Of a stretch of DNA of 10,123 bases, positions 247-10,089 are shown piece after piece. The first letter of the stretch is position 1, and the number at the start of each line of letters is the position of its first letter. Below the pieces are notes generated by a model. It was not told the origin of the DNA, ran no database searches, and was given only the letters and a program-made list of their open reading frames with translations. The position numbers were made by a program, and so were the translations under genes. The DNA is taken from contig JAHRVD010000338.1 of the NCBI GenBank assembly GCA_019090845.1, positions 1 to 10,123 of the forward strand, given 5' to 3'. This stretch comes from Marinosulfonomonas sp. Its GTDB lineage: Bacteria; Pseudomonadota; Alphaproteobacteria; Rhodobacterales; Rhodobacteraceae.

Positions 247-871
247 CGGGTGTCGATCGCCGCAAGCCTTGCAATTGCATCGCTCAGGGGCATCGCCCGC
301 GGGCTTCCCTGCCCCGACACTTCGCGATCTCCTGCATAAACCAAAAGACGTTCCGCGACACCCAGACTAGACGCGATCTTCGCCGCATTCATCAACCCAC
401 CCTGCAAAATGCGCCAGCATGGTCCAGAACCGGCGCAGGATCTCGGCAGGCACGCGGGGTCCCAACATCGGAATGTCGCGCTCCAGATAGGTGCGAATGA
501 AATCCTCGCGCCACGTCAGGCTTTGGCGGTCGGTTCCGGCCAGATAGCTTTCGGGAAATCCGCCGCGCAACCACAACGACTGCATGGCCCCGCCCGACCT
601 CGTTCAGGCTGATCGGCGTCAGTTCGTGGTAGCTGACCCGACCGGCCAGTGTTTCAGCGTTTTGCCGCAGCAGAGTGTTCGACGCCGATCCAAGCAGCAG
701 GAACTGTCCGGTGCGGTGCCCCGCCCGGCGGCGGCGGTCGATTTATCATCTCAGCGCGGCGAACAGACCGGGCATCAGCTGCACTTCCGCGATAATGACA
801 AGCCGCCCGATCTGCTCATCCAGATAAATGTCCAGTTTCTCCAGGACCTGCCGGTCAGCTGCGCGTTTCAT
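243..871 (-). pseudogene. Decayed DUF4143-type AAA ATPase
   Basis: Pieces of a DUF4143/AAA_14 ATPase are spread over several minus-strand frames. In order they are: a stretch with EQIGRLVIIAEVQ and MPGLFAALR (Walker B-like region); in-frame stops TGA-TAA at 743-748; then GQFLLLGSASNTLLRQNAE and ETLAGRVSYHELTPISLNE; a frameshift near 583-592; then MQSLWLRGGFPESYLAG and TYLERDIPMLGPRVPAEI; a frameshift near 400; then NAAKIASSLGV. The sequence then jumps near 357 to a C-terminal tail, ERLLVYAGDREVSGQGSP, ending at TAG 243-245. The P-loop region and much of the C-terminal nuclease-like part are missing: about 205 codons remain where family members usually have about 380-400. The family is widespread and its cellular role is poorly defined. 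This copy cannot make a working protein. Confidence 0.85.
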
Positions 872-1282
872 ACCATGCGGCGCGCGCTGCCGCCGAAGTC
901 CGAGGCCGGATATGGCCGCGTCATTAACATCGCCTCTGTTCACGGGCTAGAGGCGTCGGTCAACAAGGCTCTCTTTGTCGCATCGAAGGTCGGTCTGATC
1001 GGGCTTTACCGCGTCGCAGCGTTGGAATACGCCGCCTCTGGCGACAGAAAGGCTGGAGTTGTCACGGTGAATTGCATCTACCCGGGTTGGACCGAGACGG
1101 CCATCATCGAGCCTCAAGTCACAGCGCTTGCAATAGAGTTCGATGGTGATCGCGATGCTGGCATTGCCAATTTGCTGGCCGAGAAGCAACCCAGCCGTCA
1201 GTTGTCCCATCCATCCGAAATCGGCGTTCTGGCACTCTGACTCTGCTCCTCCATTGCCCACAATATTACCGGCACATCCATT
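853..1282 (+). pseudogene. Truncated 3-hydroxybutyrate dehydrogenase (SDR family)
   Basis: The frame reads CAFHTMRRALP, GRVINIASVHGLEAS, FVASKVGLIGLYRVAALE, PGWTETAIIEPQV and LLAEKQPSRQLSHPSEIG. This is the collinear C-terminal half of D-3-hydroxybutyrate dehydrogenase, the short-chain dehydrogenase that oxidises 3-hydroxybutyrate to acetoacetate with NAD+. The N-terminal Rossmann half with the cofactor glycine motif is absent. A TGA at 1238-1240 interrupts the frame, after which homology resumes in the same frame with LCSSIAHNITGTSI up to about 1282. The last few residues (usually a PVDGGW-type tail) are missing. The catalytic YxxxK motif reads FVASK here: the tyrosine codon is TTT (974-976). 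Three independent lesions make this a pseudogene. The open frame running upstream from 584 is unrelated antisense of the AAA remnant. Confidence 0.85.
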
Positions 1283-1563
1283 TACCCCCCACCTCAAAAG
1301 TCGGTTTCAAAATGCGCCACATCCGGCGCTCTCATGGTAGAGCTTGGTGTTCACTATAGTCACATGCCGGACGTTTGGCGGTTCTGACGGAACGTGCAGG
1401 CAGGTGTCCATCCGGGTGATTTTTTTGTTCGTCCGCCTAGGTCGCGTAAAAAGGGCAGTCTTTGGCGCCGGCCCATTTGTATTGTTCAAAATCACACCAT
1501 CAGGTGCCAATGCTCGCTAAATTGTAAGCGAGGTGAAACAAACCCATTTAGGAAATCAGCCCA
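1283..1563. other. Non-coding stretch upstream of the permease operon
   Basis: These 281 bases lie between the last recognisable dehydrogenase homology and the original permease start. Short frames exist on both strands, for example a 67-codon minus-strand frame at 1307-1510, but none resembles a known family. The stretch must hold the promoter of the permease/thioredoxin operon. I see no convincing -35/-10 pair; the only clear structure is the inverted repeat at 1513-1532. It may also contain unrecognised debris of the recombination that truncated the dehydrogenase. Confidence 0.5.
1513..1532. promoter_or_regulatory. Inverted repeat in the permease leader
   Basis: CTCGCT and AGCGAG form perfect 6-bp arms separated by AAATTGTA, ending 31 bases before the ATG at 1564. 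COG0701 permease genes are often controlled by ArsR-family repressors, so this 20-bp palindrome could be an operator. It could also be a chance or RNA-level hairpin. No regulator gene is visible in the window. The call rests only on symmetry and position. Confidence 0.3.
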
Positions 1564-1755
1564 ATGCAAGAACTGCTTATCTGGCTGAATGACCAGCTGC
1601 TGCGCATGCAATGGCTCTCTGATCTTGTCACATGGTTCTTGGCAGATGGTTCTTGGCAGATGGTTTGGGGATGGACATGGCCAATCGTGTTGCTGGCAGC
1701 GTCCATTTCTTCATCTATGACGTCATCAAAATTTTCATCCTCTTATCGGTCCTGA
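1564..1755 (+). other. Original permease N-terminus, now out of frame
   Basis: ATG 1564 has a fair Shine-Dalgarno (AGGAAA at 1550-1555) and encodes MQELLIWLNDQLLRMQWLSD and then LVTWFLADG. It then enters the 14-bp tandem duplication, reads an unrelated frame and stops at 1753-1755. If one copy of the duplicated 14-mer is removed on paper, the frame runs straight through FLADG-LGMDMANRV into the long permease frame and gives a 336-residue protein. This is therefore the authentic 5' end of the gene, uncoupled from its body by +14 bases. Confidence 0.8.
1632..1665. repeat. 14-bp tandem duplication (2.4 copies)
   Basis: TGGTTCTTGGCAGA occurs at 1633-1646 and again directly at 1647-1660, followed by TGGTT. 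The preceding A also matches, so the 14-base period covers 1632-1665. Fourteen is not a multiple of three, so the duplication shifts the permease reading frame. Tandem repeats of this size commonly arise, and revert, by replication slippage. Confidence 0.95.
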
Positions 1756-2588
1756 TCTTTTCCATTTCCTACGTGCAGAGCTATTTTCCGCCCGAACGCA
1801 CACGCCGGATACTGGGGCAGCGAAAGGGTGTGGGTGCGAACACACTGGCCGCTTTTCTGGGCACTTTGACGCCTTTCTGCTCATGTTCATCCATTCCCTT
1901 GTTCATCGGGTTCACCAGCGCCGGTTTGCCACTTTCCGTGACGTTTTCCTTCTTGATATCATCGCCACTGGTTGACCTCGCCTCGGTGATCCTGCTTGCC
2001 AGTATCTTTAACTGGACCATTGCGTTGAGCTATGTCGTTGTCGGCCTCATCCTAGCTGTCCTCGGTGGCACCTTGATCGGATCTTTGAGGCTTGAAAGTC
2101 AGGTAGAGGCGTTCGTATTCCAAAGCCCAGTCAGCGATCACGACAACGATGGCAAGATTAGTCGCGAAGAACGTCTGATATATGCACGAGAGCAAGTTCT
2201 GGATATCGTGCACCGCGTCTGGCTGTTTGTCCTCATTGGCATCGGTATTGGCGCCGCGATCCACAACTGGATTCCCGAAAGCTGTATCGCTTCCACTTTG
2301 GGTCAGGACAGATGGCGGTCGGTTTTTGTTGCGACCGTTGCCGGCGTCCCGATGTATGCGGATATCTTCGGAACCCTGCCAATAGCCGAAGCGCTGGTTC
2401 AAAAGGGCGTTGGTGTAGGGACCGCGCTCGCCTTCATAATGTCGGTGACCGCGCTATCGTTGCCGTCGGTGATAATGCTCAAGCGGGTCGTCAAACTGCC
2501 CTTACTCGTGATCTTTATCGCGATTGTCACGGTGGGGATCATCGTGATTGGTTATGTGTTCAACAGCGCGTCCCAATTGCTCATTTAA
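1632..2588 (+). CDS. COG0701/ArsP-family permease body, N-terminally frameshifted
   Basis: The 318-codon frame encodes a polytopic inner-membrane permease of the DUF318/ArsP group. Known members export trivalent organoarsenicals, but substrates are unknown for most. The hallmark TPFCSCSSIPLFIGF motif, with the paired cysteines, is at residues 80-94. Helices lie near residues 34-49, 85-110, 115-150, 196-212, 230-250, 262-285 and 290-312. The central cytoplasmic loop contains DHDNDGKISREE (169-180), a complete EF-hand-like calcium loop. The frame begins at ATG 1632, inside the duplicated 14-mer, where no Shine-Dalgarno is visible. Later ATGs at 1671 and 1677 are also possible and only weakly preceded by G-rich sequence. 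The protein lacks about 27 authentic N-terminal residues and may be poorly expressed or inactive. The gene is followed 14 bases later by the thioredoxin-like gene. The substrate cannot be read from sequence. Confidence 0.85.
   Translation: MVLGRWFLADGLGMDMANRVAGSVHFFIYDVIKIFILLSVLIFSISYVQSYFPPERTRRILGQRKGVGANTLAAFLGTLTPFCSCSSIPLFIGFTSAGLPLSVTFSFLISSPLVDLASVILLASIFNWTIALSYVVVGLILAVLGGTLIGSLRLESQVEAFVFQSPVSDHDNDGKISREERLIYAREQVLDIVHRVWLFVLIGIGIGAAIHNWIPESCIASTLGQDRWRSVFVATVAGVPMYADIFGTLPIAEALVQKGVGVGTALAFIMSVTALSLPSVIMLKRVVKLPLLVIFIAIVTVGIIVIGYVFNSASQLLI
2136..2171 (+). other. EF-hand-like loop coding segment in the permease
   Basis: These codons give DHDNDGKISREE. Acidic or polar residues occupy loop positions 1, 3, 5 and 9, with Gly at 6, Ile at 8 and Glu at 12, matching the canonical EF-hand consensus. 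It lies in the hydrophilic loop between the two membrane halves, followed by a helical segment (RLIYAREQVLDIVHRVW). Calcium binding is an inference. Confidence 0.6.
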
Positions 2589-2602: not shown

Positions 2603-2839
2603 ATGAACATCAAAATTCTGGGATCCGGCTGCAAGAAGTGCCTCGCGCTCGCGGACAACACAAAAGCCGCAGCTGAAACCGCGGGGATCGACCCACAGAT
2701 CGATAAAGTGACTGACGTTGTCGCCATCGCCGGTTATGGCCTGATGTCAACGCCCGGATTGGTCATTGATGAAAAGCTTGTTGCGTCGGGGCGAGTGCTA
2801 AAAGCGGTAGAGATTGGAAAACTACTGGCAAAGGCATAA
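2603..2839 (+). CDS. Small thioredoxin-like (redox-active disulfide) protein
   Basis: This 78-residue protein has the compact thioredoxin fold of the 'redox-active disulfide protein 2' group: the N-terminal strand MNIKILGSG, the redox motif CKKC at residues 10-13, and the cis-proline segment STPGLVID around Pro51. It lacks a signal peptide, so it should be cytoplasmic. ATG 2603 follows a purine-rich Shine-Dalgarno (CGGAGAGAAGAG). It sits 14 bases behind the permease gene, a pairing seen repeatedly for COG0701 permeases. It may reduce or hand over a thiol-reactive substrate, or act on the permease cysteine pair; that partnership is inference. The gene looks intact, so only the permease of this operon is damaged. 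Confidence 0.85.
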   Translation: MNIKILGSGCKKCLALADNTKAAAETAGIDPQIDKVTDVVAIAGYGLMSTPGLVIDEKLVASGRVLKAVEIGKLLAKA

Positions 2840-3143: not shown

Positions 3144-3320
3144 AGGTCCGGCTCCTGTTCCAACAGGCGGGCGTTGCGCGGTCAGGAACCTGAACGCACG
3201 GAACCTTTGCGTCTCTATACAATCTACGGACCGCCCGAGCATATTGAAGGCACAGTTCACAAGACCAAGGCCCAAGCCGATGCTTCCCACGAGCACTTCA
3301 ACGGGCAGACCACAGAGTGA
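3144..3320 (+). pseudogene. C-terminal remnant of a small cupin protein
   Basis: One frame reads VPTGGRCAVRNLN (3157-3195), resembling the VPAGTxHNVxN strand of small cupins. After a frameshift around 3196-3203, TEPLRLYTIYGPPEHIEG continues into a His/Glu-rich tail, ending with HEHFNGQTTE and TGA 3318-3320. This is the C-terminal part of the single-domain cupins whose last segment reads LKLYTxYxPPEHxxGTVHxTK. The metal-binding first cupin motif is missing and the histidine of the second motif appears mutated. It follows directly on the PPOX stump in the same orientation, which suggests one deletion joined two formerly separate genes. Confidence 0.55.
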
Positions 3321-4262: not shown

Positions 4263-4697
4263 TTACGCGGCGTCGGTGAACCTGAGATAAGGACGCACTT
4301 CGTCCCACCCTTGCACGAAAAGTTCTTTCGCCTGATCGTTGCTGATCGACGGCGGAATGATCACCCTGTCACCGGGGCGCCAATCGGCAGGTGTCGCGAT
4401 GCTTTGCGCATCTGCAAACTGAAGATCTGTGTTTTTGTGTGTCGTTCACATCCTCGATCCATTTCACGTCCTCGGCCACGGTACCGGTCGACAGCCCGAT
4501 CGGTTTGGTATTGCGCGCTGCGAAATCACCGGCCAGTTGTGACGTGCGGCCCATTTCCGTCGTGCAAACAGGCGTGAAGTCAGCCGGGTGCGAGAAGAAG
4601 AACACCCAGGCCCCATTGGCCCATGTATGAAAGTCGACCTCCCCCTTCGTGGTATCGATCGTGAAATTCGGGACGTATCGCCAATGTCCAAAGACAT
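4263..4697 (-). pseudogene. 1-Cys (Prx6-type) peroxiredoxin with central deletion and frameshifts
   Basis: The start ATG 4697 with AGGAGA upstream gives MSLDIGDT. The frame then slips by one base (near 4670-4676) into PNFTIDTTKGEVDFHTWANG, the intact peroxidatic motif PADFTPVCTTEMG and KPIGLSTGTVAEDVKWIEDV. After NDTQ an A run (T 4432-4436 on the plus strand) carries one extra base. The corrected frame reads NTDL and jumps directly to QFADAQSIATPADWRPGDR and IIPPSIS, ending LRFTDAA with TAA 4263-4265. About 80-90 residues (the region after NTDL up to the last helix) are missing: 144 codons remain of about 217-220. The product would have been a cytoplasmic peroxidase reducing H2O2 and alkyl hydroperoxides. 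The internal deletion cannot be explained by sequencing error, although the two single-base shifts could be. Confidence 0.9.
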
Positions 4698-4831
4698 GAT
4701 GTCTTCTCCTGTTTCTAAACTGTTGGGTCTTGGCCAGTAGCAATCACTGGGCGCGCACTTTGCTACTCCATTGGCGCGACCGGCCGCGGCTCCATGTCAA
4801 TTGCCTAGACCTCAAATACAGTTCGCCCGGA

Positions 4832-5794: not shown

Positions 5795-6502
5795 GTGCCC
5801 GAGATCATCTTCAGAACCGAAAACATTACCAAGGTCTATGACACGGGCGAGGTGAAGGTTTATGCACTGGCCGGCGTCGATCTTGAGTTGTTCAAGGGCG
5901 AGTTGACGGTTCTTCTCGGGCCCTCGGGCAGCGGAAAGTCGACGCTTCTGAACATCCTCGGTGGGCTTGATCACGCGACCGAAGGCCGGGTCTGGTTTGA
6001 CAATACCGAGTTGACCAAGATGACGGATCGGGGCCTGACCAAATACCGCCGCGATCACGTAGGCTTTGTCTTTCAGTTCTATAACTTGGTTCCCAGCCTG
6101 ACGGCGCGCGAAAACGTGCAACTTGTCACCGACGTCGCCGCCGACCCGATGCCCGCCGACGAAGCGCTTGGCCTTGTCGGGCTTGGCGACCGGATGGACC
6201 ACTTCCCATCTGAAATGTCGGGTGGCGAACAACAGCGCGTCGCCATCGCCCGAGCGATCGCGAAACGCCCGCAGATCCTGCTGTGTGACGAACCGACAGG
6301 CGCGCTCGACAGCACCACCGGCGTGCAGGTTCTTGAAGTATTGCGCGACATCAACGAACGCTTCGGCACCACTACAGTGGTCATCACCCACAACGCCGAG
6401 ATCCAGCGCATGGCACATCGGGTGATCTTCTTCCAGGACGGCAAGATCAGCGAAACCCGCATTAACTCCGAACGGCTCGCCCCGTCCGAGATTGTCTGGT
6501 GA
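5795..6502 (+). CDS. ABC transporter ATPase, LolD/MacB type
   Basis: This 235-residue nucleotide-binding subunit is complete. It has Walker A GPSGSGKS (42-49), Q-loop glutamine in FVFQ (94), signature MSGGEQQRV (141-149), Walker B ILLCDEP (161-167), D-loop GALD (169-172) and H-loop His199. The SGGEQQR signature and the size place it with the LolD/MacB/FtsE group, which powers type VII ABC permeases by mechanotransmission rather than by channel transport. It starts with GTG 5795 behind an AGCGAGAGAG purine stretch. It is 24 bases after the flavodoxin and six bases before the FtsX-type permease, which is its partner. Confidence 0.93.
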
Positions 6503-6508
6503 GCACTC

Positions 6509-8872
6509 ATGCAGGCGATTGACCGAAAACTCTTCCGCGACTTTCAACGGCTCTGGTTACAGGCCATCGCCATCGCTGTGGTGCTGTCCTGCGGCGTTGC
6601 GATCCTTCTGACATCGGTCGGGATGTTCGTCGCGCTTTCCGAGACGCGAACGGCATACTATGAACGCAACCGTTTTGCCGATGTCTTTGCCCATACAGTG
6701 CGCGCACCGTTGTCGCTGGTGTCCGAGATCGCCCAGATCGACGGGGTGGCAGGGGTTGAGGCCCGGATTTCAGGAACCGCGATCCTTGATATTCCGGGAC
6801 GCACCCGCACGGCTGTGGGTCGCATCCTGTCATACCCTGAAAAGACAAACCCGGTTCTGAACCTACCGCTTCTGATCCAAGGCCGTTTCCCCGACCCCGC
6901 CGTAACAAGCGAAATCGTCGTCAACGCCCCTTTTGCCGAGGCGAACAACTTTCGACCCGGCGACAGCTTCAGCGCCAATCTGCGAGGCCAAAAGCGCAGT
7001 TTCACAATCGTTGGTGCCGTGCAGTCGCCCGAATTCGTTTATACTATCGGCCCCGGCGCGATGATGCCCGACAACGAGGCTTTCGGGATTATCTGGATGT
7101 CAGAACGCGCCGCGGCGGCGGCATTCGACATGACGGGTGCGTTTAACGAGGTTGCACTTTCGTTTGCCACAGGCACCAATACTGCCTCTGTAATCGACGC
7201 ACTGGACGATCTTCTGGAACCCTTCGGCGGCCTTGGTGCCTACGATCGCACAGATCACCAATCCGACGCCTTTCTAGAGGCCGAACTTAGTCAGTTAAAG
7301 GGAATGGCCGCCATATTGCCGCCGGTATTCTTTGCGATTGCCGGGTTTCTCGTTTCCATGGTCATGAGCCGAATCATCGCACTTGAACGCAGCGAGATCG
7401 GGCTGATGAAGGCCATCGGTTATTCCAACACCGAGGTTTGCCTGCATTATCTGATGCTGGCCGGGTTAATCGCCCTTGTCGGAGTGCTGATCGGCTGGGT
7501 GGCTGGCACAATCCTGGCGCGCAGTCTGGCCGTCCAATACGCGACCTTCTTCAATTTCCCTTATGTGATCTTCCATGTATCGTACTGGGTTTATGCCGCC
7601 GCCGGTCTGGCCGGTCTGGCCACGACCAGCCTTGGTGCGCTGCAAGCGGCCTTGAAAGCCGCCCGGCTTGCCCCGGCGATTGCGATGCAACCCCCTGCCC
7701 CGCCCCGGTTCAAGCGATCCCTGATCGACGAAGCCATGACAAAGGCGCGGCTTGCCCAATCCACCATCATGATCCTGCGCAGCCTCTTGCGTTGGCCGGT
7801 TCGCAGCCTCCTGACGTCACTAGGTCTGGCGCTGGCCGTGGCCTCGGTCATAGCCTCGATCTTCATCAATGATGCGCTGGACGAAATCGTGGACCTGACT
7901 TTCTATCAAACCAACAGGCAAGACGCGATGCTGCTTTTCGCCGAGGACATTCCCGAAACGGTGCTGGAAGAGGTCCGCAACCTACCCGGTGTGCTACAAG
8001 CCGAAAGCCAGCAATTTCACGCCGCCATTCTGCGCAAGGGCCATCTGAGCAAACGTGTCGCCATCGACTCGCGGCGTCCCGGTGCCGACCTCAGCCGTGT
8101 CCTTGATATCGAAGGACGGCCGCTTGACGTCCCGCCCGGCGGCATCCTTCTGTCGCGGCGCTTGGCGGGTCAGTTGGGCGTCCATGCCGGCGACACGCTG
8201 CAGGCTGAATTTCTGACCGGTCGACGCGAAACCTATTCCCTGACTGTAACCGGGCTGGTCGATCAGCTTCTGGGGCTCGGCGCCTACATGGATTTAGAGT
8301 ACCTGAACGCCCTCTTTCGACAGGCTCCGCGCCTGTCGACGGTCAATGTTACGCTGGATGAAAACCAGATCGACGACCTGCATCGCGCCATCAAGGATAT
8401 CCCGCGCCTGACCGGGATCATCGAAATGAACGTCAATCGCCGGGCGTTTCAGGACACCATCGAACAGAACATCGTGGTGATGAACTCGATCTATATTTCG
8501 ATCGCTATCATGATCACCGTTGGCGTGAGCTATAACGCCGCGCGCATCCAGCTGTCTGAACGTGCCCGCGAACTGGCAAGTCTGCGCATCCTCGGCTTCG
8601 GCCGTGGCGAGGTGTCTTATATTCTAATCGGTGAGATGATGCTGATCGCGCTGATCGCCCAACCTATTGGCTGGCTCATCGGTGCCTGGATCGCAAGCGC
8701 GATGACCAACGCCTTTACCAGCGACCTCTATGCGATACCGCTCGTGCTGAAACCGCACATATTCGCCATTGGAAGCCTTGTCGTTCTCAGCGCCACCCTC
8801 GGGTCGGTTCTGATCGTCCGCCGCCGACTGGATCGGCTGGATCTGGTTTCCGTCATGAAGACTAGGGAGTGA
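6509..8872 (+). CDS. FtsX-type ABC permease with two FtsX modules
   Basis: The 787-residue membrane protein contains two FtsX repeats, each with an N-terminal helix, a large periplasmic domain and three C-terminal helices. Module 1 has helix 18-43, periplasmic 45-262, and helices about 267-291, 314-338 and 358-383. Module 2 has helix 433-455, periplasmic 457-650, and helices about 656-676, 705-733 and 748-771. The typical coupling sequences are visible: IALERSEIGLMKAIGYS (289-305) and ERARELASLRILGFGRGEV (684-702). LolC/E and MacB have a single module per chain; this protein carries both halves in one, like the large YbbP-type permeases. It should work with the preceding ATPase and the following HlyD adaptor to move a lipid, peptide or lipoprotein-like substrate through the envelope. 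The substrate is unknown. It overlaps neither neighbour as annotated. Confidence 0.9.
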   Translation: MQAIDRKLFRDFQRLWLQAIAIAVVLSCGVAILLTSVGMFVALSETRTAYYERNRFADVFAHTVRAPLSLVSEIAQIDGVAGVEARISGTAILDIPGRTRTAVGRILSYPEKTNPVLNLPLLIQGRFPDPAVTSEIVVNAPFAEANNFRPGDSFSANLRGQKRSFTIVGAVQSPEFVYTIGPGAMMPDNEAFGIIWMSERAAAAAFDMTGAFNEVALSFATGTNTASVIDALDDLLEPFGGLGAYDRTDHQSDAFLEAELSQLKGMAAILPPVFFAIAGFLVSMVMSRIIALERSEIGLMKAIGYSNTEVCLHYLMLAGLIALVGVLIGWVAGTILARSLAVQYATFFNFPYVIFHVSYWVYAAAGLAGLATTSLGALQAALKAARLAPAIAMQPPAPPRFKRSLIDEAMTKARLAQSTIMILRSLLRWPVRSLLTSLGLALAVASVIASIFINDALDEIVDLTFYQTNRQDAMLLFAEDIPETVLEEVRNLPGVLQAESQQFHAAILRKGHLSKRVAIDSRRPGADLSRVLDIEGRPLDVPPGGILLSRRLAGQLGVHAGDTLQAEFLTGRRETYSLTVTGLVDQLLGLGAYMDLEYLNALFRQAPRLSTVNVTLDENQIDDLHRAIKDIPRLTGIIEMNVNRRAFQDTIEQNIVVMNSIYISIAIMITVGVSYNAARIQLSERARELASLRILGFGRGEVSYILIGEMMLIALIAQPIGWLIGAWIASAMTNAFTSDLYAIPLVLKPHIFAIGSLVVLSATLGSVLIVRRRLDRLDLVSVMKTRE

Positions 8873-8877
8873 GACTT

Positions 8878-10089
8878 ATGGCCTATTTTACACGAACAAT
8901 TGTGCTGACCGGTCTTGGCCTGGCCCTGGTTTCGGGATTGGCTTATGTTGCCTTCAGCGAAGACCCCGTGCCGGTCGATTTTGCCGATGTCACCCGGGAT
9001 TCGCTTGAGATCACCGTCAACGCTGACGGCCAGACTCAGGTCCGCGATCTTTACGAAGTCGCCTCGCCCATCGCAGGTATGGCCATGCGATCCCCCGTCG
9101 ATATCGGTGACCCGGTCAAGGCCGGTGAAACCGTGGTTGCCATCGTGCAGCCGTCGTCTTCCGGACTTTTGGACGAACGCTCGCGCCGGCAAGCCGAAGC
9201 GGCGCTGCAAGAAGCCCTCGCTGCCCGCCAGGTTGCCGAAGCCGACCTGCAACAGGCCCGCGAAACGCAAGCCTTCGCGCAGACGCAAAACGACCGTACC
9301 AGGGCGTTAGTGACCCGTGGCGTGTCTTCGATCACCCGACTGGAAGATGACACACAGCGCCGGCGCGTGGCCGACGCCGCCCTCGAAGCAGCCCAGGCCC
9401 GCATCGAGATGGCCAACGGTTCAGTCGACCGCGCACGGGCCAGTCTGCTCGATCCAAGCACCCCGAAAGACATGGCCTCTAGTTGCTGCGTCGAACTTCA
9501 CGCGCCCTCGGATGGCGTCATTCTTTCCGTCGCCGCGATCAGCAAGCGACCCGTTGCCATCGGCACGCCGCTTGTCAGCATCGGAGACCCAAACGATCTC
9601 GTACTTGTCGCCGACATTCTGTCAAATGACGCCGTCCGGCTAAGCCCCGGCGCGTTGGCATATGTCGATCGCTGGGGTGGCACTGAATTGCTGACCGCCC
9701 GTCTCGATCGCATTGATCCCAAGGCCCGCACCAAAGTGTCGGCATTGGGGATCGAGGAACAACGCGTCGACGCCTATTTCACCCTCGTCAGCCCGCCCGA
9801 AGACCGGGAAAGTCTGGGCGACGGTTTTTCGGTGTTCCTCAGGATTGTCGAGTGGGGCGCTGACGACGTTCTGCAGGTACCACTAAGCGCGGTTTTCAGA
9901 AACGGTGAAGGCTGGGCAGTGTTTGTCCCGAAAGAAAACGCGGCCACTCTGCGACCCGTAACGCTTGGACGACGCAACGGCCAGATGACCCAGGTGCTTG
10001 ACGGACTTGATGAGAGCGAGAGGGTCATTACCCATCCAAGCGATGCCATCTCGGATGGGGTCAGCCTGGTGGAAAGATCACAATTGTAA
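8878..10089 (+). CDS. HlyD-family periplasmic adaptor (membrane fusion protein)
   Basis: The 403-residue adaptor has one N-terminal anchor helix (about 6-26), a split biotinyl-lipoyl domain (about 60-92 and 207-238), and an alpha-helical hairpin of heptad-like Ala/Arg/Gln sequence (96-192) interrupted at TRGVSS (146-151). A beta-barrel (about 240-330) and a membrane-proximal domain (about 334-402) follow. Such proteins bridge the inner-membrane permease to an outer-membrane TolC-like channel; none is in the window. ATG 8878 is chosen because AGGGAG lies eight bases upstream; an in-frame GTG at 8869 would overlap the permease stop and lacks this site. A vicinal cysteine pair (SSCC, 203-204) just before the second lipoyl strand is unusual for this family. 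The stop is TAA 10087-10089, and the gene is probably last in the operon that begins at the flavodoxin. Confidence 0.9.
   Translation: MAYFTRTIVLTGLGLALVSGLAYVAFSEDPVPVDFADVTRDSLEITVNADGQTQVRDLYEVASPIAGMAMRSPVDIGDPVKAGETVVAIVQPSSSGLLDERSRRQAEAALQEALAARQVAEADLQQARETQAFAQTQNDRTRALVTRGVSSITRLEDDTQRRRVADAALEAAQARIEMANGSVDRARASLLDPSTPKDMASSCCVELHAPSDGVILSVAAISKRPVAIGTPLVSIGDPNDLVLVADILSNDAVRLSPGALAYVDRWGGTELLTARLDRIDPKARTKVSALGIEEQRVDAYFTLVSPPEDRESLGDGFSVFLRIVEWGADDVLQVPLSAVFRNGEGWAVFVPKENAATLRPVTLGRRNGQMTQVLDGLDESERVITHPSDAISDGVSLVERSQL

Follow-up and report, generated by a model that had tools for sequence, protein, structure and literature searches.

Short tandem duplications that are bounded by microhomology and arise by replication slippage form a known class of mutation, and the spontaneous duplication of sequences within capsule genes of pneumococci was reportedly described by Waite et al. 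in 2001 and 2003. In one account, such spontaneous duplications silence the capsule genes and are described as reversible (PMC4243769). The locus analyzed here has in common with this system that a duplication lies inside an open reading frame and would silence the gene. It differs in that the gene encodes a permease, the neighboring genes are decayed and no second state is known, whereas the pneumococcal duplications are described as reversible.

The permease is of the ArsP_1 type. Homologs of arsP were counted in ars operons in a 2010 survey, in which ArsP is given no known function and the genes of redox-active disulfide protein 2 are named as new members of ars operons (PMC2963123). Pairs of an ArsP_1 permease and an MTH895/ArsE-type thioredoxin, with the same genes in the same order as here, are found on plasmids of Sulfitobacter sp. 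SK012 and Neotabrizicola shimadae, in the latter case among ArsR, ArsJ and ArsH genes of an ars gene cluster. Compared with these plasmid pairs, the permease frame is broken in the window, i.e. in the whole stretch of 10,123 nucleotides analyzed here, which represents one entire contig of a fragmented, metagenome-like assembly (434 contigs, completeness 73.67%). The gene context of the relatives suggests a role of the permease in metalloid efflux; no ArsR-type regulator was found beside it in the window frames scanned. The break probably reflects a real duplication of fairly recent date that abolished the function of an accessory efflux-type permease and is situated within a decaying block of genes.

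Tandem duplication and reading frames of the permease gene

The permease gene is composed of the following elements:

1550..1555, plus strand: Shine-Dalgarno-like AGGAAA, 8 bases before ATG 1564, as read from the sequence
1564..1755, plus strand: 5′ part of the permease gene, 63 codons, frame lost past the repeat, stop codon at 1753-1755
1632..1665, plus strand: exact period-14 run
1632..2588, plus strand: body of the ArsP_1 permease (PF03773) in a second frame, 318 codons

The run at 1632-1665 comprises 34 bases, corresponding to 2.43 copies of the unit ATGGTTCTTGGCAG, which is a rotation of the unit named in the preliminary description. TRF delimits the repeat as 1623-1665 with 3.1 copies and 93% matches, a degenerate upstream unit being counted in. 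No other exact tandem unit of at least 10 bp is present in the window. As the period-14 run extends over 34 bases, a single unit is left with 6 shared bases, and indeed ATGGTT is found at both of its ends, 14 bases apart. The duplication thus combines an exact unit with microhomology at the unit ends, as is characteristic of slippage-type tandem duplications. A chance repeat was rejected on grounds of length, since a self-match of 20 bases at one offset is not to be expected by chance within 10 kb.

Exact tandem duplications are scarce in the background as well. In a sample of 60 of the 434 contigs of the same genome (319,868 unmasked of 341,359 bases) three with a unit of at least 10 bp were detected, the longest of which measures 11 bp, and the 511,538 bases of 80 related loci contain six with a unit of at least 12 bp. 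Duplications like that at 1632-1665 hence occur at a low background rate. Pairs of repeats of at least 6 bases, spaced 8-30 bases apart, are by contrast frequent in this gene, numbering 9 in the window permease gene and 1-27 in 20 relatives. The 14-bp duplication is real and of an ordinary kind.

The 318-codon frame covers positions 5-293 of the 294 positions of the ArsP_1 profile with a score of 220.3 bits (cut-off 32.3) and is therefore assigned to this family. It is a member neither of the SO_0444 Cu/Zn efflux family (96.6 versus an equivalog cut-off of 300) nor of SaoE (100.5 versus 325), both from NCBIfam. A complete ArsP_1 open frame including the conserved N-terminus is not present, as the N-terminus lies in the other frame, upstream of the duplication. 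In the protein database the window permease is entered with a start at 1671 and a length of 305 aa.

Within the permease body, positions 2138-2173 encode an EF-hand-like loop, DHDNDGKISREE. The spacing of the DxDxDGxIxxxE type is shared by 86 of 120 listed homologs, that of the window included, versus none of 8 homologs examined from other taxa. This loop is possibly a candidate calcium-binding insertion, cytoplasmic or periplasmic, of the Rhodobacteraceae-type ArsP_1 permeases. A search by sequence for a related solved structure returned none, with one unrelated match at an E-value of 0.4.

Comparison with relatives

The intact proteins of ten relatives (L004, L005, L006, L007, L009, L010, L015, L084, L085 and L086) align to frame 1 of the window as far as about position 1650, whereupon the alignment continues in frame 3, starting at about 1647-1659. 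The alignment to frame 1 begins at about 1564 (at 1537 in L084, at 1561 in L004 and two others). Both frames are accordingly spanned by single proteins of the relatives, which bears out the preliminary description of a permease gene started at ATG 1564 behind a Shine-Dalgarno sequence and split by a 14-bp tandem duplication, with family-like sequence on either side. With a frame that is disrupted where those of its homologs are intact, the window permease in this respect resembles a pseudogene.

This comparison was extended to the best 80 of 561 relatives among genome contigs. In all 80 loci a WLNDQLLRM-like motif (72 recognized by pattern, 8 by eye) is joined to the body of the permease by one open frame. 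Relatives starting at 1632 without the MQELLIWLNDQLL part, which the preliminary description had named as a refutation, are absent, all 80 loci carrying this part in frame. The repeat itself is present in none of the 80, the longest period-14 run near the site being 1-5 bases, and just 4 bases in the near kin L004 and L005. Since the relatives possess single-frame genes and no repeat, the duplication is private to the window record. The short period-14 runs likewise leave a conserved fragile site unsupported. Elsewhere in the gene, exact tandem pairs of 8 or 9 bp were observed in 4 of the 80 relatives (L033, L034, L062, L064).

A database search yielded 7,994 proteins; among the best 120 of these, the entry from the window is the sole one to start downstream of the repeat, and all 119 other homologs reach upstream of the site. 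The latter are 322-359 aa in length, 93 of them 336 aa, and removal of one unit from the window gene yields, by arithmetic alone, just this number of codons. Twelve of the 119 are annotated with 322 aa from an internal methionine (MQWLSD or MEWLSD) and, as annotated, do not include the first 14 residues; this methionine is still upstream of the repeat site. The same permease is entered from two starts, with 322 and 336 aa, as P0009 and P0011, both of which derive from a contig of identical length (4,190,786); this shows that the annotation of the start is unsteady in this family. A natural downstream start in the family was rejected, as the upstream part is included in 80 of 80 loci and in 119 of 119 listed homologs.

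Constraint and age of the break

The preliminary description had found no other damage in the gene body. This holds with respect to stop codons, none of which interrupts the frame, but is weakened by four private residues at conserved columns and by at least four broken neighboring genes. The ratio dN/dS is 0.033-0.036 versus three near kin, at a saturated dS of 1.55-1.89. Private changes, counted as non-synonymous to synonymous, amount to 18:35 in the window permease versus 26:103 pooled in three relatives (L004 8:36, L005 8:37, L084 10:30; Fisher test, p = 0.058). At columns conserved to at least 98% the window has four private residues versus a mean of 0.85 per sequence, which places it tied third of 120; at columns conserved to at least 95% it has four versus a mean of 1.49 and is tied seventh of 120. 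The codon at 2316-2318 specifies arginine, versus tryptophan in all 119 listed homologs.

Apart from the duplication the frame has stayed open, which suggests a fairly recent event. The private changes in the permease body hint weakly at relaxed constraint and would fit a very recent event badly; part of this signal may be due only to the absence of relatives more than 90% identical to the window.

Neighboring genes and genome context

Around the permease the following features were recognized:

370..946, minus strand: remnants of an ATP-binding protein in several frames (AAA_14, 26.9 bits, just below the cut-off of 27)
866..1240, plus strand: C-terminal remainder of an SDR gene resembling 3-hydroxybutyrate dehydrogenase (match to positions 107-235 of a 259-position profile)
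2603..2839, plus strand: intact MTH895/ArsE-type thioredoxin-like protein adjoining the permease (TIGR00412, 87.1 bits versus a cut-off of 62; PF13192)
3201..3320, plus strand: C-terminal end of a cupin-type protein (similarity to cupin domain-containing proteins over residues 34-73 of the piece)
4266..4743, minus strand: peroxiredoxin gene broken over frames, middle DNA gone (AhpC-TSA and 1-cysPrx_C not in the same frame)

Besides the permease gene, at least four genes of the window are thus broken, namely those of the ATP-binding protein, the SDR, the cupin-type protein and the peroxiredoxin. The ATP-binding protein remnants match plasmid ATP-binding proteins in two pieces by tblastn, the SDR gene, of which just the C-terminal half is left, matches plasmid SDR proteins at 73%, and in the peroxiredoxin gene 428 window bases correspond to a span of 622 bases in an intact copy on a plasmid. 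No damage is apparent in the genes of the thioredoxin, a ZIP transporter and a YgaP-like membrane protein or in the ABC/FtsX/HlyD genes. The last-mentioned genes, encoding an ABC ATPase, an FtsX-type permease and an HlyD-type adaptor, lie in a row at 5795-10089; an FtsX/HlyD pair also occurs on the plasmid of Sulfitobacter sp. SK012, about 5 kb away from the permease-thioredoxin pair there. The break of the permease fits a stretch of DNA in decay, although sequence of poor quality might likewise account for several broken genes.

A second intact copy of the permease was not found in the 74%-complete assembly, where the sole other match, located on contig C16, is a paralog with 24% identity. 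Close copies (E ≤ 1e-100) are present in 11 of 394 genomes of the family, the own genome included, and none in the same-genus genome searched (best match 25% identity); the gene is therefore accessory. With regard to a possible mis-binning, the tetranucleotide distance of the window contig, 0.158, is slightly outside the range of 0.076-0.154 spanned by 14 contigs with a length of 7 kb or more, and its GC content is 0.575 versus a mean of 0.557 (s.d. 0.018) for 52 unmasked contigs. A scan of viral contigs returned four relatives at 58-59% identity and nothing near.

Origin of the duplication and alternative explanations

The ATGGTT sequences at both ends of the unit imply that slippage or another microhomology-based event suffices to explain the duplication. 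Most likely, slippage between these two 6-bp repeats, 14 bp apart, would have generated the 14-bp duplication and thereby shifted the frame of an accessory ArsP_1-type efflux permease in a Rhodobacteraceae-like bacterium. The locus is like other slippage duplications in having a head-to-tail exact copy, a 6-bp end repeat and a shift of the coding frame; nothing is distinctive about it within this class, and the mechanism is read from the junction alone. As a consequence, the full-length permease would no longer be made, and loss of permease function is the most likely outcome. At most, a weakly initiated product might arise from the internal ATG 1671 or 1677, devoid of the conserved N-terminal helices.

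It is unlikely that the cells carry one copy and that the two copies of the contig are an artefact of assembly or amplification. The fragmentation of the source genome would be compatible with such an artefact, and no near-identical second record of the permease is known, the next homolog among the matches listed being 89-90% identical. The repeat, however, is interior to the contig, 1.6 kb from its end, and the rarity of exact duplications in the same assembly also argues against this explanation. Short tandem repeats tend to be collapsed and not expanded by assemblers, which again counts against an artefact. Moreover, the neighbors are broken by other kinds of change too, although this could also be read as poor sequence.

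Doubtful, too, is a gene that still works from ATG 1632, 1671 or 1677 and thus dispenses with its first ~23-35 residues. Neither 1632 nor 1671 is preceded by a Shine-Dalgarno sequence at suitable spacing, even though the database gene caller picked the start at 1671; GGGGA precedes ATG 1677, from which a truncated protein might still form. The stop-free 318-codon frame retains nearly the whole ArsP_1 profile, but the missing N-terminal part is nearly invariant in the relatives: L8, N9, L12-M15, W17 and L18 are identical in 20 aligned homologs. In a structure model of low confidence (mean pLDDT 55.2, first three blocks 73-81) this part is predicted to form two helices, which precede the first long one.

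The reversible off state proposed in the preliminary description, in which slippage between the 14-bp copies would restore the gene at a frequency sufficient for phase variation, such that an arsenical/metal efflux permease is lost in the absence of the toxicant and regained by precise deletion upon its return, finds no support and is highly improbable. Exact copies that directly follow one another can revert by recombination or slippage, and the pneumococcal capsule genes provide a precedent, but the repeat tract that a phase-variable contingency locus would keep in its relatives is found at 0 of 80 loci, none of which displays a second state, the permease is no surface antigen, and the neighboring genes are broken irreversibly.

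Implications

If both copy states were present in reads, the locus would represent a rare environmental case of a reversible duplication in a metal/metalloid efflux gene. On the preferred reading, that of a loss-of-function duplication, the significance of the finding lies mostly in annotation: the 305-aa permease of the record represents a frame-shifted gene in truncated form, and the contig should be treated as DNA in which several genes are broken.
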